From NCBI RefSeq assembly GCF_000724625.1, contig NZ_CP007139.1, positions 2,604,001-2,668,000 on the forward strand: a stretch of DNA of 64,000 bases, read 5' to 3'. The notes under the pieces were generated by a model that had not been told where the DNA came from, made no database searches, and saw nothing but the letters and a program-made list of their open reading frames with translations. Origin of the DNA: Fimbriimonas ginsengisoli Gsoil 348 (lineage in GTDB: Bacteria; Armatimonadota; Fimbriimonadia; Fimbriimonadales; Fimbriimonadaceae). Below are positions 31,895 through 52,180 of the stretch, one piece after another (position 1 is the first letter of the stretch; each line of letters opens with the position of its first letter). A program made the translations under genes and the position numbers.

Positions 31895-32323
31895 TTACGC
31901 TTCGGCGTTCTCGGCGGGGGCCGCCGGAGCTTGCGCTTGGGCGTTCATGTCGTCGCGGCGAGGACCGCGCTCGCGGCGGGGGCCGTACTCGCGGCGATCG
32001 CTGCCCATCTCGGTGACCACGAACGGCAGGAGGGCCATTTCGCGGGCGCGGCGGATTTGCTCGGCGATCATGCGCTGCTGCTTGGCGGTGTTTCCGCTCT
32101 GGCGGCTCGGCAGGATCTTGCCGCGATCGTTGAGGAAGCGGCGGAGGATGTTAACCTCTTTGTAATCGACATAGTCGATTTTGTTCGTGGTGAGGTAGCT
32201 CACCTTACGGCGACGCTTCCCCTTAAACCGACCGCCGCCCTCAGGCGCGTCCTTGTCGGCTCGAGGAAAGCCTCCCCCGGGCTGGCCATCTGCGCGGGGC
32301 GTTCTGCTGGTCTCTTCGCTCAT
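31895..32323 (-). CDS. rpsR: 30S ribosomal protein S18
   Basis: The 142-aa protein starts at ATG 32323; the open frame upstream is not homologous. The S18 core is about residues 38-105 (RRRKVSYLTTNKIDYVDYK, RFLNDRGKILPSRQSG, QQRMIAEQIRRAREMALLPF). Both ends are extended: a Gly/Arg-rich N-terminus and a disordered C-terminus (RRERGPRRDD, then Ala-rich). Typical S18 is ~75-90 aa. The usual neighbours rpsF, ssb and rplI are absent. It has its own promoter and terminator. Confidence 0.93.
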   Translation of the reverse strand: MSEETSRTPRADGQPGGGFPRADKDAPEGGGRFKGKRRRKVSYLTTNKIDYVDYKEVNILRRFLNDRGKILPSRQSGNTAKQQRMIAEQIRRAREMALLPFVVTEMGSDRREYGPRRERGPRRDDMNAQAQAPAAPAENAEA

Positions 32324-32368
32324 GCTCGTTAAATTCCAAATCGGGCCCTTGCCCGAGGTGACTGAGGA

Positions 32369-32374
32369 GTATAG
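32369..32374 (-). promoter_or_regulatory. -10 box of rpsR with leader hairpin
   Basis: TATACT on the minus strand lies about 45 bases before the rpsR ATG. The leader contains a small hairpin (tcgggc/gcccga, 32341-32356), a possible site for ribosomal-protein feedback (inference). Confidence 0.45.
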
Positions 32375-32387
32375 CACATCCTCCGGA

Positions 32388-32436
32388 GCCCCCTCCTCGT
32401 CGATGTTTGTGCGATGAGGAGGGGGTTGGGGGTGGA
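32388..32436. repeat. Palindromic repeat copy B
   Basis: Stem ccccctcctcgtcg / cgatgaggaggggg (one mismatch) with loop atgtttgtg and a gttgggggtgg tail. It matches the architecture of copy A at 12204-12264. Here it is intergenic, upstream of the rpsR promoter. Confidence 0.75.
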
Positions 32437-32469
32437 GAAATCCCGCCCGTAGCGTCGACGTCCCCGCCG

Positions 32470-32533
32470 ATGATCTTGCTATACCTGCGGTACAGCAGCG
32501 GCAGAGCAGGAGCTCTGCGGTCCGCAAGATCAT
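32470..32533. repeat. Nested 64-bp palindrome at the 3' end of a lipoprotein gene
   Basis: ATGATCTTGC (32470-32479) pairs with GCAAGATCAT (32524-32533), and inside it gcagagc (32501-32507) pairs with gctctgc (32512-32518). The right arm covers the stop codon of the minus-strand lipoprotein gene. It could be its terminator or a repeat-derived element. Confidence 0.55.
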
Positions 32534-35633: not shown

Positions 35634-37325
35634 CTACGTCACCTTGATGAATGGCCGGCTGGGGACGGCTTTGCCTTTGATCCAGCCTTCGAGAATTAGG
35701 GATTCGATTCCTTCGATCGTGAGCAGGGCGGCGTCTTGAGGGGGGATGCCGTCTTCTCGGATCATGGCGTTGACGCAGTCCTCAAGGATCAGGATGCTGT
35801 CCATGTTGCGCTTCATCGCTTTGAGGAGGTGCTTGAAGACGTCGACGATCGGCAGCACTTTGGGACCGCGTTTGAGGCATGGAATGGGGACGACTCGCCC
35901 TTCGAGATAGCGGACGAACTTTCCTTCGGTCGCTCCGTCGAGATTCAAGCGCCAGAAATTTGTCTTCGTCAGCTCCCATTCGGGGGCAGCGGCGCCCATT
36001 TCGACGGCGAGCAGCTTAAGGCCAGAGACCCGGTACGTGAGGGCGGCGGCGACACCGGGTTCATCCACGGTGAAGCCTCCGGTGGCGAGCCACTGGAATG
36101 CCGACTCGGGGGTGAGGGTGAGTCCCGCCGTCTCCGCTATTTCTTGGCAGTACTCCTTCAGGTCGGTGAACTGGCTGTTGGAGGTGTACCAAAAGTCGGC
36201 GAACTGCATGTGGTGTCGAATCTGCTGGCGGTGGCCATCTTCGTACTCCTGCTTCAACCATTCCGGATCTTGTTCGTTTCGATCTAACTCGAGAATGGTA
36301 AAAGCCACCTTGCGTGCGCCGGTGTGGGCCAACGTCATGCCGGCGGAGAGGATCGGGTCGGCGAAGCCGCAGGAATCGCCGGCCAAGAACCAATTTTCGC
36401 CAGCGAGGCGCTTGGCGAGGAAGTTCCAATCCTTGGTGGCAAACAGGCCGTCTTCGGGCGTCGCGGTTTCCAGAAGGCGAGATATGAGCGGCTCGGTGGC
36501 GATGGCTTCTTCGTAAAGCTGCTCGGTGGTTTTGCCGCTTGTCTTGTAGTAGCTAGCCGGCAGTACCAGTCCGACGGAAGTGCGGGTCGGCGTAATCGGG
36601 ATGAACCACATCCAGCCCCAATCTAGGCTCATGATCTGGATCCGCGTTCCCCCGTTTCCGATGGTGACCGCCCAGGTCGCGTCTTGCCAATACTTCCAAA
36701 CCGCGATGTTTCGGAGGGCGGTGGGAGCCTCGATCTCGATGCCGAGGGCCCGCCGCAGGATCCCGATATCGCCGGATGCGTCGACGTAGTAACGTGCCTT
36801 GATCAGGCCATCGCTCCCGACTTGCTCCGTCACGTCTGGATCTTGGGAGACAACGCTCAGTCCGGTAATCCGATCGCCCTCGTGAAGCACCTGAGCGACT
36901 TTGGTTTGCTCAAAAACGCGGCAGCCAAGGGACTGCGCGTGGTCGAGTAGCACCTTGTCGTAGATGGATCGGTCGACCTGGAACGCGGTTTTCCTCCGCT
37001 GATCGACGAATTTCGCCGGGCGGGCTTCTTCGCGAAACTTCTCGTGGTGGAGAAAGTCGGTCTCCCAGTAGTCCTTCTTGGCGCCCCATTTGAAAGTGGC
37101 GCCGATCTTGATCGGGAATCCGGCGGCTTCGACCTTATCCCAAACGCCCATCTCGTCGAGGATCGCGGAGATTGCGGGGAGGTGGCTCTCGCCGACGTGG
37201 TCGCGAGGGAACTGTTCCCGCTCGACGATGGTGACATCGAGGGATGGGTTGTACTTCTTGAGGAAGGTCGCCACCGTCGTACCCGCGGGACCCCCTCCGA
37301 TGATGGCGACGTCGGTTTCTAACAT
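35634..37325 (-). CDS. FAD-dependent halogenase-like oxidoreductase, copy 1
   Basis: I place the start at ATG 37325 (MLETDVAIIGGGPAG, 563 aa); it overlaps the stop of the upstream sulfotransferase gene. The FAD-binding GGGPAG is followed by EREQFPRDHVGES, and WMWFIP matches the WxWxIP motif of flavin-dependent halogenases. GDSCGFADPILSAGMTLAH is the second FAD region. Enzymes of this group chlorinate or brominate aromatic or carrier-bound substrates, but some family members are oxidases. Copy 2 at 39192-40940 is clearly paralogous. The C-terminal 200 residues are specific to this branch. Confidence 0.78.
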   Translation of the reverse strand: MLETDVAIIGGGPAGTTVATFLKKYNPSLDVTIVEREQFPRDHVGESHLPAISAILDEMGVWDKVEAAGFPIKIGATFKWGAKKDYWETDFLHHEKFREEARPAKFVDQRRKTAFQVDRSIYDKVLLDHAQSLGCRVFEQTKVAQVLHEGDRITGLSVVSQDPDVTEQVGSDGLIKARYYVDASGDIGILRRALGIEIEAPTALRNIAVWKYWQDATWAVTIGNGGTRIQIMSLDWGWMWFIPITPTRTSVGLVLPASYYKTSGKTTEQLYEEAIATEPLISRLLETATPEDGLFATKDWNFLAKRLAGENWFLAGDSCGFADPILSAGMTLAHTGARKVAFTILELDRNEQDPEWLKQEYEDGHRQQIRHHMQFADFWYTSNSQFTDLKEYCQEIAETAGLTLTPESAFQWLATGGFTVDEPGVAAALTYRVSGLKLLAVEMGAAAPEWELTKTNFWRLNLDGATEGKFVRYLEGRVVPIPCLKRGPKVLPIVDVFKHLLKAMKRNMDSILILEDCVNAMIREDGIPPQDAALLTIEGIESLILEGWIKGKAVPSRPFIKVT

Positions 37326-39181
37326 TTCATTTCCGAGGTTTTGGGAAGCAGCTCCCCGAAGGGACCCAGCCATGGCTCATATTTCTTCCACGTCTCTAGG
37401 GAAGATCGGTAAATCGGTTGCCGCACCTGCCAGACGCTGGGGGTCACTACCGAGCGTTGATTTTGGTGGGGGCTCAAACAGGCATCATCCCACGGAAGCC
37501 CCAGGAAGTCAATCGTCTTTCGGATCACCTGTTCTGCATCAGAGACAAGGTCTGAGTAGTCGATTTCCAGCAGCGCTTCCGGTGGGAGCACGCTCCTCCA
37601 GTGGTCCATCACGCGCAGGTACTCGCGATAGGCGAACACGATGTTTTCGGGGACATGCGCGAACTCGGTCATCACTCGGTTCGGCGTGAAATAGATGGAA
37701 AGGCAGTTATCGACCGGGTGCCGGCGGATGTGGACGATCTTGGCCCTGGGAAATACCGAGTGAATGATTCCCAGTCCAGCGTAGTTCACGGGCATTTTGT
37801 CCACGACGTGCCGATTGCCGGGGGCCAATCTGGTGAGGATCGCGAGGTACCGATCGGCAAGCTTCGACATCCCCTCCGGCGAATGCTTGGCGCCATCGAC
37901 GGCGAGAGGCCAGTTGTTCACCCAAAATGGCTGCTCTCCTCCGGCTCCCACCTCGGGATGGCTGGAGAGGATCTGCTCGACGAGGGTGGTGCCCGAGCGC
38001 ATCATGCCGACGACGAAAATCGGTACGTCGCTCGCCGAACCGGCCGTCTTCATCCGCGCCAATTCGGGGGCGGTGAAACGGTGGATCGTCCGGTCAACCC
38101 GGTCGGTATATTCCGCGAAGTCGAATAGACGTCCGTGGAATCTCAGATCGGCCTCGATGTCATTCGCGATCCGGTAGTTCTCCATCGACGCCTGGTAGTC
38201 GCCGAGGTCTCCGTGGGCTTTTCCCAAACCATAGCGAAGAAAGCTATGATCGCGCGGCGTTAAGCGGGCGTCGTCGGCGAGCGCCGTCATCCGCTCGAGG
38301 AGGGAGCGATCTTCATCGACCACTCGCTTTCCGTTCACAAGGGCGAAGTAGGGATAACCTTGCGACGGATCGACGGCGATGGCGTTTTGAAAGCAGCCGA
38401 TCGCCTCATCGAGCCGGCCCAAACCTTGCAGGGCGGTTCCGAGTCGAGCCATCGTGGGGGCATCCTTAGATCCACTCTCGGCGGCTTTCCTCAATAGTTG
38501 CTCGGCCTCGGCAGCCCGATTCTCTTCCTGCAGAATGCGGCCTAGCAGGAGTTGGGTTGATGGAGAGTTGGGCGCAACCTCCAAGGCTCGGCGAGCGCAG
38601 GCTACGGCGCCCAGGGCGTTGCCTTGAGTCATGAGATACGACGCAAGGTGTTCAAAATTTTGGGCGGAGGGGGGCATCGCCCCCAGGACTTGGGCGAGTA
38701 GCCTCTCCGCCTCTTCGTCCCGACCTTGCAGATGGAGGCAGAGGCTGAGCTGAAACTGCACGGGAGGGGCGCCGCCGGACAAATGGACGCTGCGCCGAAG
38801 TAGCTCCTCCGCTTCCGGTAGTCGGCGGAGATCCATAAGGCACCTTCCCAACTGGGCAAGGGCTTGGGCATCGTTTGGATTCAACAGCAACGCCGCCTGG
38901 ACGGATTCGGCGGCTTCGGCGACGAATCCTAGCCGGTGCAGCGCCACCGATTGCCAAAAGGGGGCATGAAAGGAGCCGGGGTCGGCCTCCCGCACCTGTC
39001 GCAGCCAACCAACCGCGGCTGTTGGATCACCGACCTTTGCTTCGATAACGCCGAGAAGCAGTTTGGCCTGGATAGATTGTTCGTCCATCTCCAGTGCCTG
39101 TTGCGCCAAGGCGGTGGCTCGCTTGAGGTCACCCTTTGCATGGGCGGCGCCGGCTTCGCGAAGCAATTGGTCTACGGTCAC
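37319..39181 (-). CDS. TPR-repeat sulfotransferase
   Basis: The 620-aa protein starts at GTG 39181. Residues of about 1-300 are TPR repeats (AKGDLKRATALAQQALEMDE and several more). Residues of about 380-610 form a PAPS-dependent sulfotransferase: FVVGMMRSGTTLVEQILSSH is the 5'-phosphosulfate loop and VHIRRHPVDNCLSIYF the 3'-phosphate site. It resembles bacterial proteins related to tyrosyl-protein sulfotransferases. Sandwiched between two halogenase-like genes, it may sulfate the same metabolite or a peptide (inference). Confidence 0.85.
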   Translation of the reverse strand: MTVDQLLREAGAAHAKGDLKRATALAQQALEMDEQSIQAKLLLGVIEAKVGDPTAAVGWLRQVREADPGSFHAPFWQSVALHRLGFVAEAAESVQAALLLNPNDAQALAQLGRCLMDLRRLPEAEELLRRSVHLSGGAPPVQFQLSLCLHLQGRDEEAERLLAQVLGAMPPSAQNFEHLASYLMTQGNALGAVACARRALEVAPNSPSTQLLLGRILQEENRAAEAEQLLRKAAESGSKDAPTMARLGTALQGLGRLDEAIGCFQNAIAVDPSQGYPYFALVNGKRVVDEDRSLLERMTALADDARLTPRDHSFLRYGLGKAHGDLGDYQASMENYRIANDIEADLRFHGRLFDFAEYTDRVDRTIHRFTAPELARMKTAGSASDVPIFVVGMMRSGTTLVEQILSSHPEVGAGGEQPFWVNNWPLAVDGAKHSPEGMSKLADRYLAILTRLAPGNRHVVDKMPVNYAGLGIIHSVFPRAKIVHIRRHPVDNCLSIYFTPNRVMTEFAHVPENIVFAYREYLRVMDHWRSVLPPEALLEIDYSDLVSDAEQVIRKTIDFLGLPWDDACLSPHQNQRSVVTPSVWQVRQPIYRSSLETWKKYEPWLGPFGELLPKTSEMKC

Positions 39182-39191
39182 GACAATCCCC

Positions 39192-40940
39192 TCAACCCTC
39201 GATCGCCGCCGCCATTCTGACCATCGGGTCTTCGGTGTCGCGGTTCCAGTCGATGTTTGGAGTGCGGGGAATGTCTTCGGGGCGGAGGAGCGGCTGATCG
39301 GGTGAGTAGACGCCGGAGATCCAGCCGTCTTTCAGCAACACTTCCAACGCTTCCAATCCACTGAGGGCGACGATCGGCCCCATTTTGGCGCTGACATCCC
39401 GAAGCGCCCGGATGATGGGGCCCAGCTTCGTTTCCCTCTGCAAGATTTCCAGGATGACGCGGAAACCGCCCGAGACGGGGATTTCCAAATCGCCCTTGCG
39501 GAGGGTGCGGCCCTGCCGGATTCGACCGCCTTCGTAGATCGGCGTCTTACCGGGCACCACGTCCTCGATATTGAGATCGAATACGTTGACTTTGGTGATC
39601 TGCCACTCGGACTCGCTGTTGAAGAGCATCCCCTCGATGTTCTTGATCTGCTCGATGGAATGGCCGGCGAGTCCGGCCCCCGCCGTCTCCAGAGAAACGA
39701 AGCCGCCGGTGCCGATCCACTGCCAGGCGGATTCGGCGCTCATGTTGAGCCCTGCCCCGCGAGCGATTTCGCTGGTGTATTCGACCAGCTCCGAGAAGTG
39801 GCGATTTCCGGAATACCAGTAGTTGGCGAACTGAATGTGTTGGTAGACCCGTTGCCGCTGGCGCTTTTCGAAGGCGAGACGCATCCATTCGGCATCAACT
39901 TCGCCCCGATCGAGCTCCGCAATGGTATAAGCGCATTCCTTGGCGCCAACCATGGCGATGGTAATCCCGGCGGAAAGGATCGGATCTGCAAAACCGGCGG
40001 CCTCGCCGACCAAAAACCAGTTTGGTCCGGCCATCTGGCGAGCCAAAAAGGACCAGTCGCGGGTGGCGCGGACCTCTCCGTCACGTTTGGCGGCGGCGGT
40101 TAGGGCGGCGATGCGCGGTTCCGACCTCACCGCTTCCGCGTACAGTTCCTCTGGTCGTTTCCCGCACTGCTTGTAATAATCGGCGGGACACACCAAGCCG
40201 ATCGAGGTACGGGTGGAAGTTACCGGAATGAACCAGATCCACCCATATCCGAGGCTCATGATCTGAATTCGGGTAGCCCCCGCGCCGATCGTCACGGCCC
40301 AGTCGGCATCTTCCCAATAATCCCAGAAGGCGATGTTTCGCAGCGCGTTGGGCTCTTCGGTTTCAATGCCCAGGCCGCGCCGGAGGATTCCCGCGTTTCC
40401 GGACGCGTCGACGTAGAACCGGGCGGTCAACTTGGAGCCATCGGAGAGCTCCAACTCCTTCACGGCGCCATCGGTAGCTTCCACGCGCGTGACCGCCACC
40501 CCTTCCCGGACGACACAGCCGAGCTCCGCGGAGTGGTCTAGAAGAATCTTATCGAACGGACCGCGCTCCACCTGCCAGGTGCTCCGCATGCGCCAGCCTT
40601 CGTACTTGCCAGGGCGCTTTTCGAGGGGATTTACTTCGGCGGTCTCCAGAAGGTTGAAATCCCAAAGATCGTCGGAGGAGCCCCAGCGGTACGTCGCGCC
40701 GATCTTGATCGGAAAGTTGGCGGCTTCGATCTTGTCCCAGGCGCCGATCTCATCGAGGATTCGGCCGGTGGTGGGGAGCAGGCTCTCGCCGATGTGGTCC
40801 CGGGGGAAAACTTCTCGCTCGAGAATGAGAACGCTGAGGTGGGGCGCGTGCTTTTTGAGCATGGAGCCGACCGTGGACCCGGCCGGTCCGCCACCTACGA
40901 TAACGACGTCGAATGCTTCCTGCATCGGTGAAGAACCCAT
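39192..40940 (-). CDS. FAD-dependent halogenase-like oxidoreductase, copy 2
   Basis: The 582-aa protein shares order and motifs with copy 1: DVVIVGGGPAGSTV, PRDHIGESLLPTTGRILDE, WIWFIP (WxWxIP) and GEAAGFADPILSAGITIA. Two starts are possible, ATG 40940 or ATG 40925; neither has a strong ribosome site. A terminator-like hairpin at 40952-40976 sits just upstream, so expression may depend on read-through. It leads a three-gene minus-strand unit: halogenase-like, sulfotransferase, halogenase-like. Confidence 0.78.
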   Translation of the reverse strand: MGSSPMQEAFDVVIVGGGPAGSTVGSMLKKHAPHLSVLILEREVFPRDHIGESLLPTTGRILDEIGAWDKIEAANFPIKIGATYRWGSSDDLWDFNLLETAEVNPLEKRPGKYEGWRMRSTWQVERGPFDKILLDHSAELGCVVREGVAVTRVEATDGAVKELELSDGSKLTARFYVDASGNAGILRRGLGIETEEPNALRNIAFWDYWEDADWAVTIGAGATRIQIMSLGYGWIWFIPVTSTRTSIGLVCPADYYKQCGKRPEELYAEAVRSEPRIAALTAAAKRDGEVRATRDWSFLARQMAGPNWFLVGEAAGFADPILSAGITIAMVGAKECAYTIAELDRGEVDAEWMRLAFEKRQRQRVYQHIQFANYWYSGNRHFSELVEYTSEIARGAGLNMSAESAWQWIGTGGFVSLETAGAGLAGHSIEQIKNIEGMLFNSESEWQITKVNVFDLNIEDVVPGKTPIYEGGRIRQGRTLRKGDLEIPVSGGFRVILEILQRETKLGPIIRALRDVSAKMGPIVALSGLEALEVLLKDGWISGVYSPDQPLLRPEDIPRTPNIDWNRDTEDPMVRMAAAIEG

Positions 40941-40951
40941 ATATAAATAAG

Positions 40952-40976
40952 GCCGGACCCTTTAACAGGGTCCGGC
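40952..40976 (-). terminator. Hairpin between the lipoprotein gene and halogenase-like copy 2
   Basis: gccggaccct (40952-40961) pairs with agggtccggc (40967-40976). On the minus strand it is followed by CTTATTTATAT. It ends the upstream lipoprotein transcript but lies only 11 bases before the next start codon, so it could also act as an attenuator. Confidence 0.75.
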
Positions 40977-40991
40977 TTCGGCAAATGCCGG

Positions 40992-41228
40992 TTACTTTCC
41001 TCCGGGCGCCGCGCCCGGTTGTCCGCCCGGTTGTCCGGCCGGATTACCCGCGGGTTGCTTGGCCCCGCGAGGCTTCTTGCTCATGCTCTCAAGGCTTGGA
41101 GGCCCGCCGAGCATTTCGTGCATCTTCTTCTCATCGGGTTGCGAAGGGGAAGAGCCGCAGCCGGCTCCCATCGCCCCAATGAGAAGGAGGCTGGCGAGCC
41201 CCGCCCAAAGGTTTACCGGCTTTATCAT
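40992..41228 (-). CDS. Small lipoprotein
   Basis: A 78-aa protein with a positively charged N-terminus, hydrophobic segment and lipobox MGAGC near residue 24. The mature part is Pro/Gly/Gln-rich (QPAGNPAGQPGGQPGAAPGG) and unstructured. It overlaps the pseudopilin stop by 4 bases and so is co-translated with it. No family is recognised. Confidence 0.7.
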   Translation of the reverse strand: MIKPVNLWAGLASLLLIGAMGAGCGSSPSQPDEKKMHEMLGGPPSLESMSKKPRGAKQPAGNPAGQPGGQPGAAPGGK

Positions 41229-42151
41229 GATCCCTTCGGCCAGAAAGCCTTGATGGCCTTGTCCGCGCCTCCGTTGATCGGGATTGTGGTGCCCATCAAC
41301 TGTCGGTAGGGTGTGGACTTGACGTGGCCGTCCGTACCTGCCCAGATGGTAAGTCCGGTTGGTTCCTGGGTCGGCGTTCCGCCGGGCCAGGGGTACGTGC
41401 CGATGACCTTACCGTCGTTGTCCCTTGCGCGGGCAAGCGGGCCGCTCGTTACGAGGTTACAGCCGTACGTATTGAAGCCACAGGAGCCCCAATAGAGGTC
41501 GAAGCTGTCCGCGTTATCCTGCTGCCACATGAAGTCCCAGTTACCGGACTGAGCGATCATGACCTGATCTGCCGGACTGGCGACCGCCGTGGTAGAAAGC
41601 GAGGGGGTGCCTCCCGCTTTATAGCCATAGGCCGACCAGATGATTCCACCGGAGGAGTTGGTTACGCCGCCGATGCCGTCGTAGTGCCAAATCTGTCCGC
41701 CGGTCATGGCGGCGCCGGTGGAGGAAGAACCAAACGTGTAGTTGCTGAAGCTGCCGTCGGTGGCCGCTTGCTGCGGTCCCATGCCCCAAAGGCCATAGAT
41801 GGCAAAGGCGGTGCCGGCGCCTTCGTCATTGGAGTTTTGGAGGATGCTAGGACCGGTCGGGTCGAGCAGAACGCCCCATGACTTCATGTACGGCTGCTGC
41901 AGATACGAGAAGGGGAGTGCGTGCCAGTTGCTGTCGTATTCGACGACCGGCGAGAAGTTATCGTCGCTGTCGCCAGCGTACATGAGTTGGCCGAGCGCCA
42001 TCTGCTTCGCGCCGCTGATTGCGACGGATGTCTTTGCCGCTCGTTTGGCTTGAGCGAAGACAGGGAACAGAATGGCCGCAAGGATAGCAATGATTGCAAT
42101 TACAACTAGAAGTTCGATGAGCGTAAAGCCACGTCGCTTACATTTTTTCAT
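41225..42151 (-). CDS. Prepilin-like protein with type IV pilin leader
   Basis: ATG 42151 follows GGAGAACGTC and gives MKKCKRRG followed by FTLIELLVVIAIIAILAAI, a class III (type IV pilin) signal cleaved before the Phe, with Glu at position 5 of the mature protein. The 308-aa product continues LFPVFAQAKRAAKTSVAISG and ends with a GTDGHVKSTPYR block, a pattern common in the DUF1559-like pseudopilins of Planctomycetes and Armatimonadota. It is probably surface-exposed. It lies 13 bases downstream of the regulator gene, in the same operon. Confidence 0.82.
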   Translation of the reverse strand: MKKCKRRGFTLIELLVVIAIIAILAAILFPVFAQAKRAAKTSVAISGAKQMALGQLMYAGDSDDNFSPVVEYDSNWHALPFSYLQQPYMKSWGVLLDPTGPSILQNSNDEGAGTAFAIYGLWGMGPQQAATDGSFSNYTFGSSSTGAAMTGGQIWHYDGIGGVTNSSGGIIWSAYGYKAGGTPSLSTTAVASPADQVMIAQSGNWDFMWQQDNADSFDLYWGSCGFNTYGCNLVTSGPLARARDNDGKVIGTYPWPGGTPTQEPTGLTIWAGTDGHVKSTPYRQLMGTTIPINGGADKAIKAFWPKGS

Positions 42152-42164
42152 GACGTTCTCCAAA

Positions 42165-43331
42165 TTACGGGGTGTCTACAAGGACGGAAATCGATCGCGG
42201 TTCTGCGGTTGAACCCGCGATCATGAGTGGCGCATCGAGCAGCACATGCCGGAACGTTCCACCGAAGCTCGCTTTTGATCGCTCACAAAGCAGTTCGGTG
42301 GCAAGTTGGCCGATGCGCTCAAACGATTGACAGCACGTGGTGAGGAACCCCCCGCCAGGAACCCACCGGAGCAAGCCGTCAAAACCTAAGAGAGAGATGT
42401 CCCCAGGCACGGAAATGCCCCGGGACTGCAGCGCGGCATGTACCTGCAGCGCTACGTGGTCGTTGATTCCCACGATCGCCGTGGGAGGTTCGGGAAGACT
42501 GAGTAATTCGTCCAGGGCCGCTTCGACCCCTTCCGGCTCATCGACCATGTCTTGGAACACCAGCTCCGGATCGAATGGGATGCGGGCATCGTTCAGCGCG
42601 CGCCGGTAACCCGCTTCGCGGGCGAGCACGCTGGATACGGCATCGTTATTCGTAATCAGGGCGATCCTTCGGTGTCCGAGATCGGCCAGGTGTTTCACGC
42701 TCTGACGCGCGGCCGCTTCGTTATCGGAACCGACGAAGTCGGCTTCGAACCCCTTCGGCGGCAGCCGGTCGACGAAAACCATGGGGATGCCGGCGGCCCT
42801 CACCTTTTCGAGGGCGTGCCGGTTGCGTTCGGTGCCTAGGTACCACAGGATGGTCCCGATCGCATGGGGATCCTCGGCGAGTTCAAGCAGGTATCGCTCT
42901 TCGGCCTCAAGGCAACCCTCCCAATCGCGTCCGCTCGGTACGTTGGCCACGACGAGTCGGATGTCTCTCGGCAAGTCGGCGGACTGAATTCCTTTGAGAA
43001 TCGAGGATGCGCAGTAGTCGCCCGCATTTGGCCACAACCAAATGGCGATATCCCCGTGCCCTTCCGCCCTTCGCAACGCGCCCGCTTCCGCCGTCTCGTT
43101 GGCGGTTCGAATTCCTGGATTCCGCACGATGGGGCGGCAATTGGGCTTGCAAAGCAACAAGCCCTCCGCCTCCAATTTGCGGATGGCGCTTCGGACGATG
43201 ACTCGGCTGACGTGAAACGTCTTCGCGAGGTCTCTTTCTCCGGGCAACCCTCGTCCGACCGGCAAATCGCCGCGTCGTATCCGGTCCCGCAAACCGTCGA
43301 TCACCGCCATGACCAGGGGCGACTCATGCAT
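42165..43331 (-). CDS. GntR-type HTH fused to LacI-type sensor domain transcriptional regulator
   Basis: The 388-aa regulator has an N-terminal GntR winged helix (about 5-70: IRRGDLPVGRGLPGERDLAK, then SRVIVRSAIRKLEAEGLL) and a C-terminal LacI/periplasmic-binding-like domain (about 95-370: HRRIALITNNDAVSSVLARE, IVGINDHVALQVHAAL, DISLLGFDGLLRW). This layout is that of AraR-type sugar-responsive repressors. It heads an operon with a pseudopilin and a lipoprotein, which it may control. TTAGGAG precedes ATG 43331. Confidence 0.88.
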   Translation of the reverse strand: MHESPLVMAVIDGLRDRIRRGDLPVGRGLPGERDLAKTFHVSRVIVRSAIRKLEAEGLLLCKPNCRPIVRNPGIRTANETAEAGALRRAEGHGDIAIWLWPNAGDYCASSILKGIQSADLPRDIRLVVANVPSGRDWEGCLEAEERYLLELAEDPHAIGTILWYLGTERNRHALEKVRAAGIPMVFVDRLPPKGFEADFVGSDNEAAARQSVKHLADLGHRRIALITNNDAVSSVLAREAGYRRALNDARIPFDPELVFQDMVDEPEGVEAALDELLSLPEPPTAIVGINDHVALQVHAALQSRGISVPGDISLLGFDGLLRWVPGGGFLTTCCQSFERIGQLATELLCERSKASFGGTFRHVLLDAPLMIAGSTAEPRSISVLVDTP

Positions 43332-43600: not shown

Positions 43601-43927
43601 GCTCCTGCCCTTCGACCCCCATTTCTTACCCTTTCCAGGTTCAAACCGCGCATTTCCACAGGTTAGGGATATGCGGCTCGACTTCACCCTGGGTGAGTGG
43701 TCCTCGACTGCTATTCTACACTCGTTGAAAGTCCGTCGGTTGTTACCAGTGTCGAACTTTATCGTTTGTCCCGTAGGAGCCATCGCCTTTGTATCTGGCT
43801 GAACGCTGGTGTTTCAGAGTCCTCGCAGAATATCGCCACTGACAACCATTTTGCTGTACTAACGCCTGTTATACTTGCGATCATCGCGCCATGGGCGTGC
43901 ACTTCCTTCTGGTCCGTGTATTTTATC

Positions 43928-46387
43928 GTGGCAAAGATTAAGGACATTCTCATTTGCCAAAACAAATCAGCGCAGATCGAATTAGCGAGGCGCGTCGTTC
44001 TTTCGCAAAACCTCGGTCCCTTCGGAATCTGGTCGTGGCTCGCTGATTCGCTGAGAGAGTTGCCGAGACGCTCTTGGACTCGAGAAGCTCACAAACGACT
44101 CTGGGATGGTGGGCTGTTGACAATTGACAGCACCCCTGCGAACCCTGGTTCGGTCGCTGACTACAGCAGCCGGATCATCTCAGCGGGGCTTCAGGTTAAC
44201 AAGCGGGTCGCAATACTCTTCCCGAAAGGAACGGATCATGGCAGCATTGTGCCGGATGTTGCGGTTTCCTGGTGCTTGGAACCGAAAGAGTTCAAGTTGA
44301 CGAACCGAGTCCTGCTTGTCAGCGGCCGAGCTGGCGCTCACAGGCCACTAAGACATGCGCAGGTGGGAGCACTTGCGCTAGCGAGTGTATTGGACATACA
44401 CGCCAATGATGCCAATGCCACCCTGAACCTGGCCGGGCGTGCTTCACAACTTCCGACAGTTATCTACACTTCACGCCCGTCAAACCTGAGGAGTCTACTG
44501 AATGATGTACAGCCAGATGTGGTCATTCTTGACTTGTGCGCGACGGATCGACAGCCCTGGGTTGTGTCGGCCATGGCCGATTTGCGAACGTTTAAGAACC
44601 CTGTCGCCCTATGGACAGATAACCCCTTCGTCTACGTGTTGGCGGGTTCAACCGAATGGCTTCGCTTTCGCTGGGACTCGGGAAAGCCAGCAGATGAGAC
44701 GGATGTGGAACCCCTGAGGCTGAGGTCACTCATCGCCCAGCAGGGAACTACATCCCTGAACTCACTGATCGTTCCGACGCTCAGCAATTCAGCGGAAGCG
44801 ATGATGAGAGATGCGACCATCGATCTTGTTCGAGCAAGGGTGGAGCTTAATGGGGCGTTGGCCCAGGAAGCAGCATCCCTGCTCGCCAGATTTGTCCGCG
44901 CGATGAGTCGGTTATCGATACCTGTTGCTGAGTTTGATGATCTCTCCAGCACCCACTGGGGTGTTGCTTCACTGACTGCTCTCAGTGACGAAGTTGAGAA
45001 CTATTTCAAGTATTGGACAGATTCACCCCTGCCGCTGACCCGTGCGCGAGAGGCAGCGCAGGAGGCTTTTCGCCTACTGCGAAGAGACGGACCCGCCTTG
45101 GGCAAAGCGCTTACCAACCACATCTTGGAAGGGAGAGAGCCCCGGCAGGTTCTTTTTCCTTCCCGTTCGCAGGCAGCACTGTTTCGAAAACATTTCGCAA
45201 GCGAGTACGGACTCCAGCAGGGTGCTCCTCTGCTCCCCCTGTCGCCGGATGAGTTGGGAACTTTGGAAATCGAAGGGCAGCTTCTCGTTGTCGGTTTGCC
45301 CTATCCCGACTTCTTCTTCAAAGCACCTCAAGTTCTTTTAACGGACCGGATTGAGGTACTCCACCATGAATTTGAGGTCAAACTCGCCGACTGGGTCTTT
45401 AACACTTCGGTAGAGATGTGTGCGCCATCTACAGAAGAAAATGTCCATGCCGTGGCACAACTCCTCGGCAAAACAGAGCCGATTATTGGGCCACAAAGCC
45501 AGTCCAGAATCGTGCGAACGCCTGCAACGTTTGTTACCCCCCAAGGGACAAAGGAGTCTCAAGCAATGCAATTGAACTTGCCAAGCCAGATAGACGCTTG
45601 GGCCAGTCTTCTAAGCCAAGAGGAGCTCGATGCCGAAGGAATGGAAAGCGAACCGTTGGAACGCGGAGGTACTTGGACTTCCGCTGCGGTCGAAATACGG
45701 TTTTCCGATCGCACATGGGTCTTCCTCGATGAGTGCGGTCCCGTTCAAGTCGTTACAAGTAGCAGAATGGAGCAGCGTCCCGCAAGAGACTTGGTTGCCG
45801 GTGATCAAATCATGCTCATCAATGGTCAGAAGCGACAAGATCAATTTTCGATGCTGCTGACTAGACTCCACGCCGTTAGCGGTGTTTCCGTTTACGTTGA
45901 TCTCGTCAATAGGTGGCGGAGCGAAATCGGTGAACTGTACCATCGACACTGGGTCGCCCAGGGGTTGGGAACCAACGAGTTACTCTGTAAGCTCAGGTCC
46001 CTGGGCACAAGCGTCACAACGGCTGATACGGTTCGAAACTGGATTCGTGGCTGGCATACACCGCAAGACCGCCAAGACATCTGGAGAGTCGCAGTCGCTC
46101 TCGAAATGCCATTCACGACCCAGCACCACCGGGCCATAGCAAAGGCTGCCACGGAGATCGCCAACGTTCACCGACAAGTGTCTCGGCAGATTAACCTTTG
46201 GCTGGAATGGCGATTGAGCGATCCCCTAAGAGCAAGGTCCGCGATGAATGCAGAGATTCTCCCCGATCTAGGGATTTCTCTTGCAGATTTCTATGACGCC
46301 GTTGTGATACTCGACATCGAAGAAATCCAACTCCTTGACCGTCCGGTTCCGGGGAGTCTAATTGGAAGGAGACAAGGCTTACTATGA
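43928..46387 (+). CDS. drmE: DISARM-associated protein DrmE (class 2 type)
   Basis: The frame is open from GTG 43697, but the first ~77 codons look non-coding; GTG 43928 (VAKIKDILICQNK) gives 819 aa, a plausible DrmE length. No strong ribosome site marks the start. I assign it by position: it is directly upstream of, and overlaps by ATGA, a drmA-drmB-drmC set, as in class 2 DISARM. Visible features are a Rossmann-like stretch (TVIYTSRPSNLRSL, DVVILDLCATDR), and a C-terminal helical region. The molecular function of DrmE is not established. Base composition is less GC-rich than in the upstream genes. Confidence 0.7.
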   Translation: MAKIKDILICQNKSAQIELARRVVLSQNLGPFGIWSWLADSLRELPRRSWTREAHKRLWDGGLLTIDSTPANPGSVADYSSRIISAGLQVNKRVAILFPKGTDHGSIVPDVAVSWCLEPKEFKLTNRVLLVSGRAGAHRPLRHAQVGALALASVLDIHANDANATLNLAGRASQLPTVIYTSRPSNLRSLLNDVQPDVVILDLCATDRQPWVVSAMADLRTFKNPVALWTDNPFVYVLAGSTEWLRFRWDSGKPADETDVEPLRLRSLIAQQGTTSLNSLIVPTLSNSAEAMMRDATIDLVRARVELNGALAQEAASLLARFVRAMSRLSIPVAEFDDLSSTHWGVASLTALSDEVENYFKYWTDSPLPLTRAREAAQEAFRLLRRDGPALGKALTNHILEGREPRQVLFPSRSQAALFRKHFASEYGLQQGAPLLPLSPDELGTLEIEGQLLVVGLPYPDFFFKAPQVLLTDRIEVLHHEFEVKLADWVFNTSVEMCAPSTEENVHAVAQLLGKTEPIIGPQSQSRIVRTPATFVTPQGTKESQAMQLNLPSQIDAWASLLSQEELDAEGMESEPLERGGTWTSAAVEIRFSDRTWVFLDECGPVQVVTSSRMEQRPARDLVAGDQIMLINGQKRQDQFSMLLTRLHAVSGVSVYVDLVNRWRSEIGELYHRHWVAQGLGTNELLCKLRSLGTSVTTADTVRNWIRGWHTPQDRQDIWRVAVALEMPFTTQHHRAIAKAATEIANVHRQVSRQINLWLEWRLSDPLRARSAMNAEILPDLGISLADFYDAVVILDIEEIQLLDRPVPGSLIGRRQGLL

Positions 46388-49300
46388 GTAGCCAAGCGTT
46401 ACCAACTGAAGTTCAGAATCAACTTGAATTAGCTTCCGCACTCATTGAGTACGTGGTTGCAGAAGCATCGGGCCGTTCCGAGACTGTTTGCTTCGGGGAC
46501 TTCCCAAGGAATCAATACTTCATCGGTAGTCTCCGACCCACTCCCTTGGCTCCCGATGCGACTCGCTGGCTTTCAGACCTAAAGCAAAAAATGTCCCCGG
46601 TTGCTGCAGGCTTGGACGCGCTGGTCAAGATACCCAGTGACCACTCAATAGAGGTTTGGGCAACGATCAGTTGGAACGTCTACTACCGAGTCCGTCCATC
46701 GTATGAAGAACAACAAACCTTTCAAGATCCAATCCGCAGGGACGATGAGGACAACGACGATGACTCGGTCGGGTCTCCACCCCCGCCTTCACAACCTAAC
46801 ACAAGGCAGCGGGAGCGGCCGGTACCCAAATTCAAGAAATTGAATTGCTCGGCATCTGGTCCATTAGTCTTGCAAAGCCATGAAAGCGGGATAAGTGTCG
46901 AAGCTGGTGGCGTAAATACCGCCATTAACGCGGAGCTGGCGAGGGTTGGCGCTATACGTGACGCAGACCCTGACTTGTTCCGAGTGGGTCCAAGGCCGGA
47001 CCCTGAGTTACCAAACAAGCTCGGAGCAGCAGACATGGTTAGCGACCAGGCCTATAGACGATATTGGGCTAATTTGCCGGACCTGGCGATTACACCATGG
47101 GCTATCCGCGTTGACGTCTCCTGCGAACCTTCTCCTGAGCACATTGAACATGGCCGGCTGGTAGTGGATATCGTCAATGTCACTCCGATCTCCGAGAAAG
47201 ACCAGGTTCACGAGCCGTTCATATTCGACACACGCTTGCAACTCGAATTCCCATCAGGCTGTCTGGCTCCATTTCGCCTAGTCTCTGCTCCGAAGGACTT
47301 TCGAGAAAATCCACGTATGTTTGGCCGGGGCCGCAACTGCGCGGTCGAACATGCTGACGACACCCTTTCTACCACCCACACGCCGATGTACATGCAGGGC
47401 CGTTACGTCACAAGGGAAACGCCCGAAGCACTTACTTGTGAGCTTGCAACAGATCCGTTTCCCACATTGGAGAAACTAGAAGTGGCAATGTCCTCCTACG
47501 AATTGGCGTGGGATCAAGCGCTGTCCGAATTCAGACTCGACCCAGCATGGGATGATGAACAAGAATTGGCCTTTATGAAGGACCGAGCACTCTACTTCGA
47601 TGAGGTAAGTCGCTTCAAACACGGCCTCAACCTATTGCGAACAAATGCAGATGTTGCATACGCTTTCACGCTCATGAATCGCGCTTTCGAGCGCAATGCA
47701 CTAAGAGCCTGGAGACTTATGCAGATTGTCTTTATCGTTACCCAACTCCCGGGACTCGTTGCCGAAGATCCGATGGATCAGGAAAGGGAAACAGTTGACA
47801 TAATCTACTTCCCAACTGGGGGCGGAAAAACCGAAGCTTACCTTGCCGCAGTAGTTTTCTCATGCTTCTGGGATAGATTGCGAGGGAAGATTGCAGGTGT
47901 CACGGCTTGGGCTCGATTTCCTCTTCGCCTCCTTACTGCACAGCAGTTGCAGCGTTTTGCAAACATCATTTGCTGTGCCGACCTAGTGCGAAAAGCCGAA
48001 CCGGATATTAGGCTCTCGGGGAGTAATGTAGACGGTTTTGCGGTCGGCTATTACGTTGGCTCTGGCGGAACACCGAATTCCATCCAGTCGGCCACGGCGT
48101 CGAACTCCGGATCGGGGCTACCTTGGGCTCAAGCGCAGGACCCAACGTTCATTCAGAAGTTCAAACGAATCGCAGTCTGCCCGGCGTGCCGCACGAGAAC
48201 CGTGATCGTGGAATTCGACCACGTCGCCGTAGTTCTCCGCCACAAATGTGTAAATGAATCGTGCGCGTTTTCAGAAGGAATACTTCCAATATACGTTGTC
48301 GATAACGACCTTTATCGTTATCTCCCAAGTGTTATGGTCGGCACTCTCGACAAACTCGCGCAAATAGGTATAGCACGAAAATTTGGAATGATTTTAGGCA
48401 GTGTCGATGGCAGGTGCCCCACTCATGGGTACTACAACGGCAAATGTTGCCAAGATGGCTGCCGCGAAACTCTATCGAAAGTGAAGCCTGTGGGCCTGTC
48501 CGGTCCTTCCCTCTTTGTTCAAGATGAACTGCATTTGCTGCGCGAGGGTTTAGGAACCTTCGACTCCCATTATGAGACGCTATTCCAGCTACTTCTGAAC
48601 GAAGCTGGTACGAAGATGCCGATCAAGATACTAGCTTCCTCAGCCACGATTGAGCAGTTTGAGAGGCAAGTCAACCAGCTGTATGCCAGAAGCAAGGCCA
48701 GAGTATTTCCCGGCCCAGGTCCGAAGAAGGGCCACTCGTTTTACGCAACAACTCTGAACTACCCACAAAGGCTCTACGTCGGAGTGTTACCCCACAACAA
48801 GACTCTTCTAAACGCGTTGTTTAAGTTGACTGAGTCGTACGTGCGCGGCTTGGGAACGCTACGCGGGAGATATCACACAGGACCAACCTTTACCGACGTT
48901 TCCACCCTCTACTCGTCTTGTGCGCATTACTTCTTGGCCAATCCTGACTTAGACGCTTTTAAGACTGACTTACGGGATCATGTCAGCCCAGCGCTAGTTA
49001 AGGATGGTTTCCCGCAGCCCACGACGTATACACTGACTGGAGGCACGTCTGCAGACGACGTAAGTGGAACCTTGGAGGCACTTGAGAGAAGCTCAGCCGT
49101 GTCAGACCCTGTTCAGTTCGTGTTGGCCACCAATACGATAAGCCACGGAGTCGACATTGACAGGTTGAACTGGATGTTCTTCTTTGGGATGCCTCGTCAG
49201 ACTGCCGAGTATATCCAAGCGTCGAGTCGAGTGGGAAGGGCATACATTGGTGTTGTCTTCACATGCTTCAACCCTACCAGGGAGCGAGACCAAAGCCATT

Positions 49301-49791
49301 ATCACTACTTCGCTAAGCAACACGAATTCCTCGGCAAACTCGTTGAACCTGTGCCAGTAAATAGATGGTCGAAATTCTCTCTCGACCGTACTTTGCCGGG
49401 TGCCATCAATGCGATGTTGCTACACCAGCAGTCCCAGAAACTGAGAAGTGACCGCAGGAATCTAGTCTATATTCTCGACAATGTCAAAGCCATGTTTGCC
49501 AGCGGCGAACTGAGCGAAGCAGAAGTTGAATCAGGCGTACTGACGGCGTATTTGGGGCCTCAAAACAACCTTGGGGACCCAGCATTCCGAGCTAGACTGC
49601 AGCAACGCTGCAAAGCCATTATATTTGACCAGATCGAGACGAGTGTTCGGCCGGTCACGTTCGTGAGCGATGCCATGACACCTAGTCCCATGAGGAGCCT
49701 TCGTGAAGTTGACGAGCCTGTGTCCATACGACTGAATTCGGCGGGCTTAAGTTGGAGTAGGGTTGCACGTGCAAAGGGCGGTGGAGCGTAG
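46384..49791 (+). CDS. drmA: DISARM helicase DrmA
   Basis: The 1135-aa protein is an SF2-type helicase: Walker A in YFPTGGGKTEAYLAA near residue 480, DELH box in FVQDELHLL near 714, motif III LASSATIEQFERQ near 753, and C-terminal motifs LATNTISHGVDIDRL and YIQASSRVGRA near 945. Between Walker A and DELH there is a ~230-residue insert with zinc-type cysteines (CPACRTRT ... CVNESC). The N-terminal ~450 residues are typical of the long DrmA proteins. In DISARM, DrmA and DrmB form a complex that acts on invading DNA. It overlaps drmB by one base. Confidence 0.88.
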   Translation: MSSQALPTEVQNQLELASALIEYVVAEASGRSETVCFGDFPRNQYFIGSLRPTPLAPDATRWLSDLKQKMSPVAAGLDALVKIPSDHSIEVWATISWNVYYRVRPSYEEQQTFQDPIRRDDEDNDDDSVGSPPPPSQPNTRQRERPVPKFKKLNCSASGPLVLQSHESGISVEAGGVNTAINAELARVGAIRDADPDLFRVGPRPDPELPNKLGAADMVSDQAYRRYWANLPDLAITPWAIRVDVSCEPSPEHIEHGRLVVDIVNVTPISEKDQVHEPFIFDTRLQLEFPSGCLAPFRLVSAPKDFRENPRMFGRGRNCAVEHADDTLSTTHTPMYMQGRYVTRETPEALTCELATDPFPTLEKLEVAMSSYELAWDQALSEFRLDPAWDDEQELAFMKDRALYFDEVSRFKHGLNLLRTNADVAYAFTLMNRAFERNALRAWRLMQIVFIVTQLPGLVAEDPMDQERETVDIIYFPTGGGKTEAYLAAVVFSCFWDRLRGKIAGVTAWARFPLRLLTAQQLQRFANIICCADLVRKAEPDIRLSGSNVDGFAVGYYVGSGGTPNSIQSATASNSGSGLPWAQAQDPTFIQKFKRIAVCPACRTRTVIVEFDHVAVVLRHKCVNESCAFSEGILPIYVVDNDLYRYLPSVMVGTLDKLAQIGIARKFGMILGSVDGRCPTHGYYNGKCCQDGCRETLSKVKPVGLSGPSLFVQDELHLLREGLGTFDSHYETLFQLLLNEAGTKMPIKILASSATIEQFERQVNQLYARSKARVFPGPGPKKGHSFYATTLNYPQRLYVGVLPHNKTLLNALFKLTESYVRGLGTLRGRYHTGPTFTDVSTLYSSCAHYFLANPDLDAFKTDLRDHVSPALVKDGFPQPTTYTLTGGTSADDVSGTLEALERSSAVSDPVQFVLATNTISHGVDIDRLNWMFFFGMPRQTAEYIQASSRVGRAYIGVVFTCFNPTRERDQSHYHYFAKQHEFLGKLVEPVPVNRWSKFSLDRTLPGAINAMLLHQQSQKLRSDRRNLVYILDNVKAMFASGELSEAEVESGVLTAYLGPQNNLGDPAFRARLQQRCKAIIFDQIETSVRPVTFVSDAMTPSPMRSLREVDEPVSIRLNSAGLSWSRVARAKGGGA

Positions 49792-51656
49792 TGGCGATGG
49801 AAGTTGGTAAGCGGCAGATTCTATTTCAATACTTGCCTGGAAAGGTGTTCGATCATCGTGATGGAGTAATCGCGCGCGTCCGTTCAATTGTGGGCAGGGA
49901 GCACAAAGACGTTACGCCCAGCCTGCTACTGCAATCCATTCGTGAGCATGCATCCAGCTGGCCCGCCGACATGCGCACAAACTTGCCGGACCAACACCTA
50001 AACGACCTCAGCCAGTTCGTCTTTCTAGACCCGCTCGAATTAGAAGCCGAGCTATTTCCGCTCGTCTTCTGGTGCAATAACGATAGCTGCGCGCACGTTC
50101 GAGTAGTCAACGAAGACACAGTACCCAGGACGGCAAAGTGCACGAGATGCTCGGTCGGCGAAGCTATTCAAATGCCGTTTGTGCTGATGCACGCTTGTGG
50201 TCGGCTCGAAGCTTGGAATCCTCCTCAGTGCGGTACATGTAGATCAAGGGCCGATCTTGCTCTTCAGCGAAGAGGCAAGCTTCTGGGAAGCAACTCCCGC
50301 TGGTGGTGTCTGCGTTGCCAGGTAGCTGTTACCCCCCTCACGCCGAGATGTTCATGCGGTTGGTCGAACCCTGCAGATGGCATTTCGCCGATGATGCAGT
50401 ACGAACTATATCGCGCCGGTCGAACCATGTACCCGCAAACTGTAACTGCGGTCAATCAACCAAACAGATCGGAGGAGACAACGAAATTACTGGCCACCGA
50501 TGGTTGGGCAGCAGCGGCGACTTCAATCCATCTGGGCTTGGACCAGATTCGTGGAATGTCCCTCAACGAATGGTGCCGCCAAAGGCGAGCGGTTGACGGC
50601 GACGGAGCAGCAGCAACTGCAGAAATCAGCACGGAGGAACTAAATGCTTTAATGAATCAGCTTATGCGAGGTGAGATCACGCCGGCGCAGATGCAGGAAC
50701 GGGTTACTCAGGCTAGACAGTCCGCAAGTTCTAGCCAAGTTGCTCTTTCACGAGCGAATTTGGAAGCCGCTATTTACAACGCGATCAACTTGGATTCTCC
50801 AGCAATAGCAAGCGTTGGGCGTGAAATGTTGGAGTCAGTATTCCTCTCGGAAGCTACCCGAGTAGGAACTGAACAGGGGGACTCCAACGGCACCTCTATT
50901 GAAAGACTGCTGGCCAAAATGGGAATTGCCGAAGTTTCAGTTGTGACAGACTTCCCCGTGACTACTGCAGTTTATGGCTTTACGCGGGGAGCCCCAGGTC
51001 AGAAAGCCAAGCTCAACCCATTTCCTCGCGACACTCATTACGGAAGAATTCCAGTTTACACGGACGTCGTGGAGGCGGATGCATTAATTGTAACGCTCAA
51101 TCCCAATATGATTGTACAGTGGCTCGAATCACTTGGCTACAGTTGTACTTTGCCCGGTGCCTCTTCTCCGGAGGTCTCAGCGAAGGGATATTTCCTAAAC
51201 CTATTTGATGGTGTTGATCTTCGGGAAACAATCGGGGCAGGAGCGCCAGAGGCAAGATTAGTATTTGGAGCACTGCACTCGTTATCACATATCTCGATTA
51301 GGCAGGCCGCATTACTGTCCGGTCTTGATGTCACTAGTATGTCCGAGTATTTGCTGCCTCGATCCCTCTCCTATGCCATATTTTGCAACCATCGATTTGG
51401 AGCAACTATTGGTGCCTTGGTATCGCTCTTTGACCAATCTCTTGAGATCTGGCTAGAGTCCATCAGAGAAAATAGAGGTTGTGTTTACGATCCTGTTTGT
51501 ACGTCGCAAGGAGGGGTTTGCCATTCCTGTTGCCACCTAGCCGAGACTAGTTGCAGGTTCTTTAACCTCAACTTAGCGCGTCCCATGCTTTTTGGTGGTC
51601 ATGACCGTGAACTCGGCAATGTTTCTCGCGGATATTTGCAGTTTTCAGAGGAATGA
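49791..51656 (+). CDS. drmB: DISARM protein DrmB (DUF1998)
   Basis: The 621-aa protein starts at GTG 49791, overlapping the drmA stop (TAGTG). The N-terminal half has paired cysteines (CGRLEAWNPPQCGTC, WWCLRCQVAV, PRCSCGW). The C-terminal half is a DUF1998 domain ending in a cysteine cluster (DPVCTSQGGVCHSCCHLAE, then TSCRFFN). DrmB partners the DrmA helicase in all known DISARM systems. It overlaps drmC by 4 bases, completing one translationally coupled unit. Confidence 0.88.
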   Translation: MAMEVGKRQILFQYLPGKVFDHRDGVIARVRSIVGREHKDVTPSLLLQSIREHASSWPADMRTNLPDQHLNDLSQFVFLDPLELEAELFPLVFWCNNDSCAHVRVVNEDTVPRTAKCTRCSVGEAIQMPFVLMHACGRLEAWNPPQCGTCRSRADLALQRRGKLLGSNSRWWCLRCQVAVTPLTPRCSCGWSNPADGISPMMQYELYRAGRTMYPQTVTAVNQPNRSEETTKLLATDGWAAAATSIHLGLDQIRGMSLNEWCRQRRAVDGDGAAATAEISTEELNALMNQLMRGEITPAQMQERVTQARQSASSSQVALSRANLEAAIYNAINLDSPAIASVGREMLESVFLSEATRVGTEQGDSNGTSIERLLAKMGIAEVSVVTDFPVTTAVYGFTRGAPGQKAKLNPFPRDTHYGRIPVYTDVVEADALIVTLNPNMIVQWLESLGYSCTLPGASSPEVSAKGYFLNLFDGVDLRETIGAGAPEARLVFGALHSLSHISIRQAALLSGLDVTSMSEYLLPRSLSYAIFCNHRFGATIGALVSLFDQSLEIWLESIRENRGCVYDPVCTSQGGVCHSCCHLAETSCRFFNLNLARPMLFGGHDRELGNVSRGYLQFSEE

Positions 51657-52180
51657 ACGATTCAACTGTGCTGGTTACGACATTGCCGGACCAGCTACTA
51701 TGTGGGACCGAGTTTGATGTCCGGCGAACTGCTGGGGTGCTCGTTCAACTTGTTACGGAAGCCAAAGAGGAGCTTCTCATTGCCTCTCCCTTCATCACCG
51801 CGGATGATGAGTATATGGGTGGGGAGAGCATGTATCAGTCCTTGGTAGCAGCGACAAAAAGAGGTGTTAAGCTTATCTGCTTCCTCTCGACCAGTGGCGC
51901 AAAGGACGTGCTGTCCAATGGGCTTCACCGTGAACTACATAACCTAACGCTCTTCGAGCCTAGCAGTGCACTTGCTGCTGAGAAGCGCATGGGTTCGCAC
52001 GCAAAAGTGGTGATTGCAGACTCAATGAGTGCCTACATTGGGAGTGCCAATTTCACCTATCCTGGCCTGCACTCCCAGTTGGAGATCGGAGTACACGTCC
52101 ACGGGGATATCGCTCGGGAGTGCAGGTGCCTCTGGAACATAGTTCAGGCGAACGGCTACTTCCAGCAAGTCTTCCCTTAG
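51653..52180 (+). CDS. drmC: DISARM phospholipase D-like protein DrmC
   Basis: The 175-aa protein has one HKD motif: His116-x-Lys118-x4-Asp123 in SHAKVVIADS, followed by GSANFTYPG, the PLD/nuclease active-site signature. Upstream is a typical PLD beta-alpha stretch (ELLIASPFITADDEYMGG). Single-motif PLD proteins work as dimers. DrmC is reported to be dispensable for protection in some DISARM systems. It is somewhat short for the family. Its stop overlaps that of the convergent GNAT-ABC gene (TTAG). Confidence 0.85.
   Translation: MNDSTVLVTTLPDQLLCGTEFDVRRTAGVLVQLVTEAKEELLIASPFITADDEYMGGESMYQSLVAATKRGVKLICFLSTSGAKDVLSNGLHRELHNLTLFEPSSALAAEKRMGSHAKVVIADSMSAYIGSANFTYPGLHSQLEIGVHVHGDIARECRCLWNIVQANGYFQQVFP

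Follow-up and report, generated by a model that had tools for sequence, protein, structure and literature searches.

A 64,000-nucleotide stretch of the Fimbriimonas ginsengisoli Gsoil 348 genome (positions 2604001-2668000 of one contig of 5,231,762 bases; hereafter the window) carries one conserved unit of genes in the order GntR-type regulator, prepilin-like protein, small lipoprotein, FMO-A, ST and FMO-B. Judged by sequence and predicted fold, the two flavoenzymes FMO-A and FMO-B belong to the flavin-dependent halogenase group, with its motifs kept, and ST is by family a sulfotransferase, preceded by an array of tetratricopeptide repeats (TPR). The FMO and ST families are both tied to pilin genes far above chance, and we tentatively propose, with a probability of roughly 35%, that the FMOs oxidise or halogenate, and ST sulfates, the co-encoded pilin-like protein, which we infer to be the substrate. 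An earlier note on this DNA had placed two flavoenzymes on either side of a TPR-sulfotransferase on one strand. This is what we found, in three minus-strand open reading frames (ORFs) at 39192-40940, 37319-39181 and 35634-37373; the upstream rest of the unit (40952-43331) had been left out. The features of the unit are as follows.

42165..43331, minus strand: GntR-type regulator (PF00392 and PF13377) with a periplasmic-binding-protein-like sensor domain
41225..42163, minus strand: prepilin-like protein (PF07963, N-terminal methylation motif), the candidate enzyme substrate
40992..41228, minus strand: small lipoprotein ORF of 78 aa with a lipobox-like ...GAGC, overlapping the pilin stop
40952..40976, minus strand: strong terminator-like hairpin (10 pairs, 8 of them G-C) between the lipoprotein and FMO-A
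39192..40940, minus strand: FMO-A, predicted halogenase-group flavoenzyme of 582 aa with Lys79 and W234-x-W236-x-I238-P239
39306..39584, minus strand: C-terminal region of FMO-A, drawn from predicted models and fold comparison, without sequence support
37319..39181, minus strand: ST, TPR-sulfotransferase of 620 aa with a GTG start
37484..38023, minus strand: sulfotransferase domain of ST, residues 387-566 (PF13469, 139.8 bits)
35634..37325, minus strand: FMO-B, predicted halogenase-group flavoenzyme, counted from its likelier ATG (longest frame from 37373)

Genes came from a simple ORF caller and were labelled by thresholds that we set ourselves. FMO-A, ST and FMO-B lie head to tail, with 10 bases between the FMO-A stop and the ST start. 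The FMO-B frame is open to 37373, but translation more likely starts at the ATG at 37325, which overlaps the ST stop.

Conservation and spread of the unit

Orthologous units are present in four congeners (G019, G005, G017 and G004), with ST inverted in G004, and in a fifth (G012) the unit is rearranged, with the pilin on its far side. These congeners keep FMO-A, ST and FMO-B orthologues together, so a chance arrangement can be set aside. Identities to the window's proteins in G019, G005, G017 and G004, respectively, are 81, 82, 65 and 79% for the pilin, 72, 72, 65 and 72% for FMO-A, 78, 74, 71 and 71% for FMO-B, 51, 50, 49 and 45% for ST, and 52, 53, 53 and 61% for the GntR-type regulator. The pilin of the unit is thus conserved as well as or better than the enzymes, and beyond residue 70 it still shows 62-80% identity in the four congeners.

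Both families extend well beyond this site. FMO matches occur in 27 of 61 genomes, with nine in this genome and up to 18 in one, and family members are found in Phycisphaerae too. ST matches (E <=1e-40) occur in 11 of the 61, all of one genus; five ST-rich genomes, where 21 candidates were scored, hold at least 14-21 each among the matches listed (at least 21 in one) and are also the richest in FMO matches (12-18). The nine FMO matches here and the wide spread of both families rule out a one-off pathway at this site. Our literature searches found no description of a pilin-linked halogenase-like family in Armatimonadota, and the main text of the F. ginsengisoli genome paper contains no word starting "halogen" (PMC4072686).

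Linkage of both families to pilin genes

This genome contains 97 pilin-like matches; a passage of the genome paper reports 79 PulG-type genes (PMC4072686). When 84 of the 97 were used in a test against random positions, six of seven FMO loci lay within 5 kb of a pilin (P 0.00015) and all three STs within 3 kb (P 0.0016). Across five relatives, where the FMOs of one unit were counted separately and genes less than 3 kb from a locus end were dropped, 34 of 55 FMOs (5.9 expected) and 31 of 40 STs (4.4 expected) stood within 3 kb of a pilin, a six- to seven-fold excess. These tests assume evenly spread pilins or free positions, and their P values are optimistic because pilins cluster. Counted by gene order, a pilin lies within four genes of 59 of 68 STs and 74 of 110 FMOs. 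The FMO contexts in this count are loci for most of the matches listed, and the ST contexts are 40 regions plus the STs inside FMO loci; counts differ between analyses because the label thresholds differ.

Two further neighbours recur beside FMO genes. A sodium/hydrogen-exchanger-type protein, one cluster of seven, is encoded near an FMO in loci L037, L047, L050, L061, L064, L072 and L076 (the L037 member carries the Pfam domain), and in L034 and L047, from a Phycisphaerae contig and a congener, FMO genes adjoin a DUF1501-type protein.

FMO-A and FMO-B group with flavin-dependent halogenases

The FAD motif, GES and WxWxIP read by the earlier note are indeed present in both FMOs, which carry GGGPAG (FAD-binding GxGxxG), GESxLP, FPIKIGA and GWxWFIP. 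Each matches PF04820 Trp_halogenase at 114-116 bits (cut-off 21), and the best solved relatives by phmmer are PltA, FasV (8zop), Mpy16 (5buk), ChlB4, CmlS and CndH (3e1t). In an alignment of 91 family members, FMO-A residues Lys79, W234, W236 and I238 are invariant and P239 is kept in at least 90%. The Lys79 column aligns with a Lys of PltA, FasV, Mpy16, ChlB4 and CmlS, and we take Lys79 to be the catalytic Lys of halogenases. A profile of this alignment gives FasV 249, PltA 246, CmlS 219 and CndH 218 bits, and the uncharacterised 3nix 174, FixC 44 and QhpG 36 bits. The AlphaFold2 model of FMO-A (pLDDT 88) had CmlS as its top Foldseek match, over 573 alignment columns. In VIA-align, CndH came first (Z 43.8, rmsd 2.0 over 377 residues) and QhpG 26th (Z 32.2). 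A grouping with non-halogenating oxidoreductases, the outcome that the earlier note had itself set against its proposal, finds no support in these profile scores and fold comparisons, which favour halogenases.

In a quick tree, 31 family members split from six characterised halogenases with branch support of 99, on long reference branches; the tree has no outgroup and no non-halogenase, and was built without QhpG and LodB. FMO-A and FMO-B fall in separate subclades, each with a close relative from G019. The FMOs accordingly share with halogenases of the CmlS, CndH, FasV, PltA, Mpy16 and ChlB4 type the FAD domain, the catalytic-Lys and WxWxIP motifs and the predicted fold, and with CmlS a C-terminal domain as well, but differ from them in forming their own clade, in being multicopy and pilin-linked, and in having no biosynthetic core genes nearby.

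This kinship bears on a reading in which the enzymes work on a phenolic or pyrrolic compound, the FMOs halogenating and ST sulfating it, and the pilin cassette provides regulation or surface context only. The closest characterised relatives, FasV, PltA, Mpy16, CmlS and CndH, are halogenases that act in natural-product pathways, and the motifs are intact in 104 of 109 family members. Yet no polyketide synthase or nonribosomal peptide synthetase domain was found among the 34 window proteins scanned with Pfam (part of the window's ORFs), which agrees with the earlier note. Genomes hold up to 18 FMO and at least 21 ST matches, spread singly with pilins, and most STs have no FMO at hand (one lies within four genes in 23 of 68). 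We regard small-molecule tailoring as rather unlikely. The compact small-molecule pathway that the earlier note had envisaged is not supported, given the GntR-pilin-lipoprotein cassette around the enzymes, the multicopy, pilin-linked families and the failure to find a scaffold-making enzyme.

A different reading concerns the chemistry: like QhpG, the FMOs may hydroxylate peptidyl or carrier-bound aromatics instead of halogenating. QhpG is described as structurally similar to CmlS, yet as dihydroxylating peptidyl Trp (PMC7876137). QhpG, LodB and GoxB, which modify protein Trp, have a related flavoprotein fold and, like the FMOs, genes near a possible protein substrate, and the QhpG C-terminal domain is weakly similar to that of the FMOs (Z 2.8). 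The two FMOs score 115.8 and 135.4 bits on the QhpG model NF049967 and 82-97 bits on the LodB model, under the cut-offs of 240 (curated) and 400; on the CmlS model NF033113 they reach 181.2 and 180.6 bits, under a curated cut-off of 900. That the genome has no PF01613 flavin reductase match also fits hydroxylation. Against it, FPxKxG is kept in 108 and WxWxIP in 105 of the 109 family members, and the family profile scores QhpG far lower (36 bits) than halogenases (up to 249). We find hydroxylation somewhat unlikely; it can be combined with modification of the pilin.

The FMO C-terminal domain is RRE-like in predicted fold

In the predicted models, the C-terminal domain of the FMOs has extra strands on both sides. 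Its highest VIA rows are TbtB (Z 6.1), NisB (5.4 and 5.0), TbiB1 (5.0), TigE (4.9) and ThcOx (4.9), all proteins bearing recognition elements (RREs; PqqD-like domains) of ribosomally synthesised and post-translationally modified peptides (RiPPs), and the matched regions are presumably these RREs. Lower rows include PqqD (4.4), PbtF (4.4), CteB (3.9), McbB (3.6), LynD (3.6), CmlS (3.6) and QhpG, and lysine methyltransferases, the carbamoyltransferases GdmN and NovN, and NO66 are listed too. Foldseek put CmlS first (E 6e-3). Sequence searches found nothing, and PqqD gave no sequence match in the 91 aligned family members. Because no VIA match reaches Z 8 and sequence searches find nothing, the predicted domain is RRE-like by fold only and its RRE membership is unproven. 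It differs from RREs in its low Z scores, in the missing PqqD match and in that no short precursor peptide was identified: a search for one brought up lipoprotein ORFs only, which also occur behind pilins without an FMO. Of 100 Foldseek candidates inspected in the RRE-defining study, about 75% are reported to be false positives (PMC12710340).

ST and its sulfate donor

The earlier note's TPR-sulfotransferase stands as described, with a TPR array and a Sulfotransfer_3 domain at 140 bits, and the genome has a supply of the sulfate donor 3'-phosphoadenosine 5'-phosphosulfate (PAPS). The motif [RKG][ST]GT[TSN], which we take to be the 5'-phosphosulfate loop, is present in 69 of 69 STs. When the ST domain alone was compared with solved sequences, ten were found: seven protein-tyrosine sulfotransferases, two from polyketide pathways and one named only sulfotransferase. 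E-values to the protein-tyrosine enzymes are weak (about 1e-7 to 6e-5, best 8e-8), and the position of the TPST catalytic Glu falls one column off in the alignment. ST thus shares with TPST1 and TPST2 the sulfotransferase domain with its RSGTTL motif, but has a TPR array in front and no membrane segment that we could see.

Searched with two Pfam sulfotransferase models, this genome yields the three pilin-linked STs and no others. Its one adenosine 5'-phosphosulfate (APS) kinase domain sits in a cysD-cysNC-pilin-ST locus (L130). Of three PF01507 matches, one belongs to that locus as its cysD; the remaining two are probably the assimilatory cysH and cysD. A cysD or cysN gene stands near a pilin and an ST at six loci in six genomes, five of them with cysN, in varying order and strand. 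Elsewhere, an M50-family peptidase is encoded directly upstream of a TPR-sulfotransferase (L041:14608-15453).

Pilin cassettes beside carbohydrate-related genes

In our survey of 50 pilins in 40 loci of this genome (L115-L154), cassettes of a pilin and a small lipoprotein, many with a GntR gene, were found beside GH4, GH2, GH30, GH44 and sugar-transporter-like genes. Lipoproteins like that of the unit follow pilins with and without an FMO. The hydrolase and sugar-transporter-like neighbours suggest that the pilin-lipoprotein cassette is a general carbohydrate-related module. Because similar cassettes adjoin glycoside hydrolases, the pilin may belong to a module for sugar uptake or attachment, and a surface programme related to sugars or phenols would fit as well.

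It also raises a reading in which the enzymes modify or detoxify aromatics during plant or polysaccharide breakdown: the module would sense or bind a carbohydrate-like ligand, the FMOs oxidise or halogenate released phenolics and ST sulfate them. The regulator's sugar-type sensor domain and the hydrolases beside the genome's other pilin cassettes are in keeping with this, as are FMO cassettes that adjoin GH16 and a glucoamylase-like protein. However, no hydrolase or transporter gene lies between the FMO-A, ST and FMO-B genes, the cysD-cysNC-pilin-ST loci have no hydrolase among their labelled genes, and the unit's pilin is highly conserved across species. We hold this explanation to be unlikely.

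The pilin-like protein as candidate substrate

If the pilin-like protein is the substrate, the FMOs, their flavin reduced by a separate reductase, would oxidise or halogenate the pilin's aromatic side chains, Trp or Tyr, and ST would use PAPS to sulfate hydroxyls on the same co-encoded protein. Modification would occur ahead of export, and the protein substrate would be held by the FMOs through their RRE-like C-terminal domain and by ST through its TPR array. Of the readings considered here, we find this use of the enzymes the most likely. In favour are the pilin linkage, the conservation of the pilin, the APS kinase locus, the TPST relatives of ST, the RRE-like predicted fold, the QhpG precedent and the Tyr content of ST-linked pilins. 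The composition comparison was remade with 70 more loci because the first comparisons were confounded by genome. In the five ST-rich genomes, pilins with an ST among the next two downstream genes contain 6.38% Tyr (n=19), against 4.80% in unlinked pilins (n=66; P 0.003). With a single pilin retained per cluster and class, the values are 5.82% (n=13) and 4.54% (n=91; P 0.004). With seven residues tested and P values uncorrected, this enrichment is only suggestive.

Several observations weigh against pilin modification. Thr, one of the seven residues, is also raised in ST-linked pilins, and Trp is not; in FMO-linked pilins no Trp or Tyr enrichment was found, Glu and Arg being low instead. The window's own pilin is not Tyr-rich, and the first enzyme gene after it is an FMO, not ST. 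FMO and pilin distances correlate, but not once near-orthologues are removed, which leaves seven units. No pilin lies within four genes of 36 of the 110 FMOs, and cassettes of pilin and lipoprotein, often including a GntR gene, likewise adjoin glycoside hydrolases and other genes, as FMO cassettes adjoin GH16. The FMOs and ST look cytoplasmic, with no hydrophobic N-terminus, and pilin passengers are exported. The PF01613 flavin reductase family, matched in 13 of 14 control genomes, has no match in this genome (other reductase families were not searched). Every RRE-like VIA match is below Z 8, the tool's caution level, and lacks sequence support, and CmlS, with a similar C-terminal domain, is not known to act on a RiPP. 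The terminator-like hairpin, finally, stands between the lipoprotein and FMO-A.

A broader version of the pilin reading, which we consider unlikely, is a surface-coat programme across the genus that combines protein halogenation or oxidation with sulfation. Each pilin-like surface protein would have its own modifying enzymes: halogenase-fold flavoenzymes with a peptide-binding-like domain, which would oxidise or halogenate its aromatic residues, and TPR-sulfotransferases (at least 21 in one genome), which would sulfate it using PAPS from enzymes encoded at that locus. If pilins are the substrates, the FMOs would represent a protein-directed branch of flavin-dependent halogenases, and the STs would supply many candidates for protein sulfation in bacteria, with a named partner for every enzyme. 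Should the substrate instead be a small molecule, there is still a large, pilin-linked, halogenase-like family in Armatimonadota with members in Phycisphaerae.

Regulatory signals and neighbouring genes

Terminator-like sites in the region number 12, against 9.1 in shuffled sequence, and the hairpin at 40952-40976 is notable in stem strength only; it is possibly an attenuator. Three sigma-70-like sites were found, against 2.3 in shuffles; one of them lies upstream of the regulator (43413-43384).

Immediately next to the GntR gene and divergent from it runs a DISARM-like set of defence genes, DrmE, DrmA, DrmB and DrmC (43697-52180, plus strand; PADLOC and Pfam models). Opposite these genes, at 52177-54735 on the minus strand, is encoded a protein of 852 aa that has an ABC-type ATPase domain and matches MADS components weakly. 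Ribosomal protein S18, at 31895-32533 (minus strand), has a frame of 212 aa with a long N-terminal extension and an S18 domain from residue 106; its start may have been called too far upstream.

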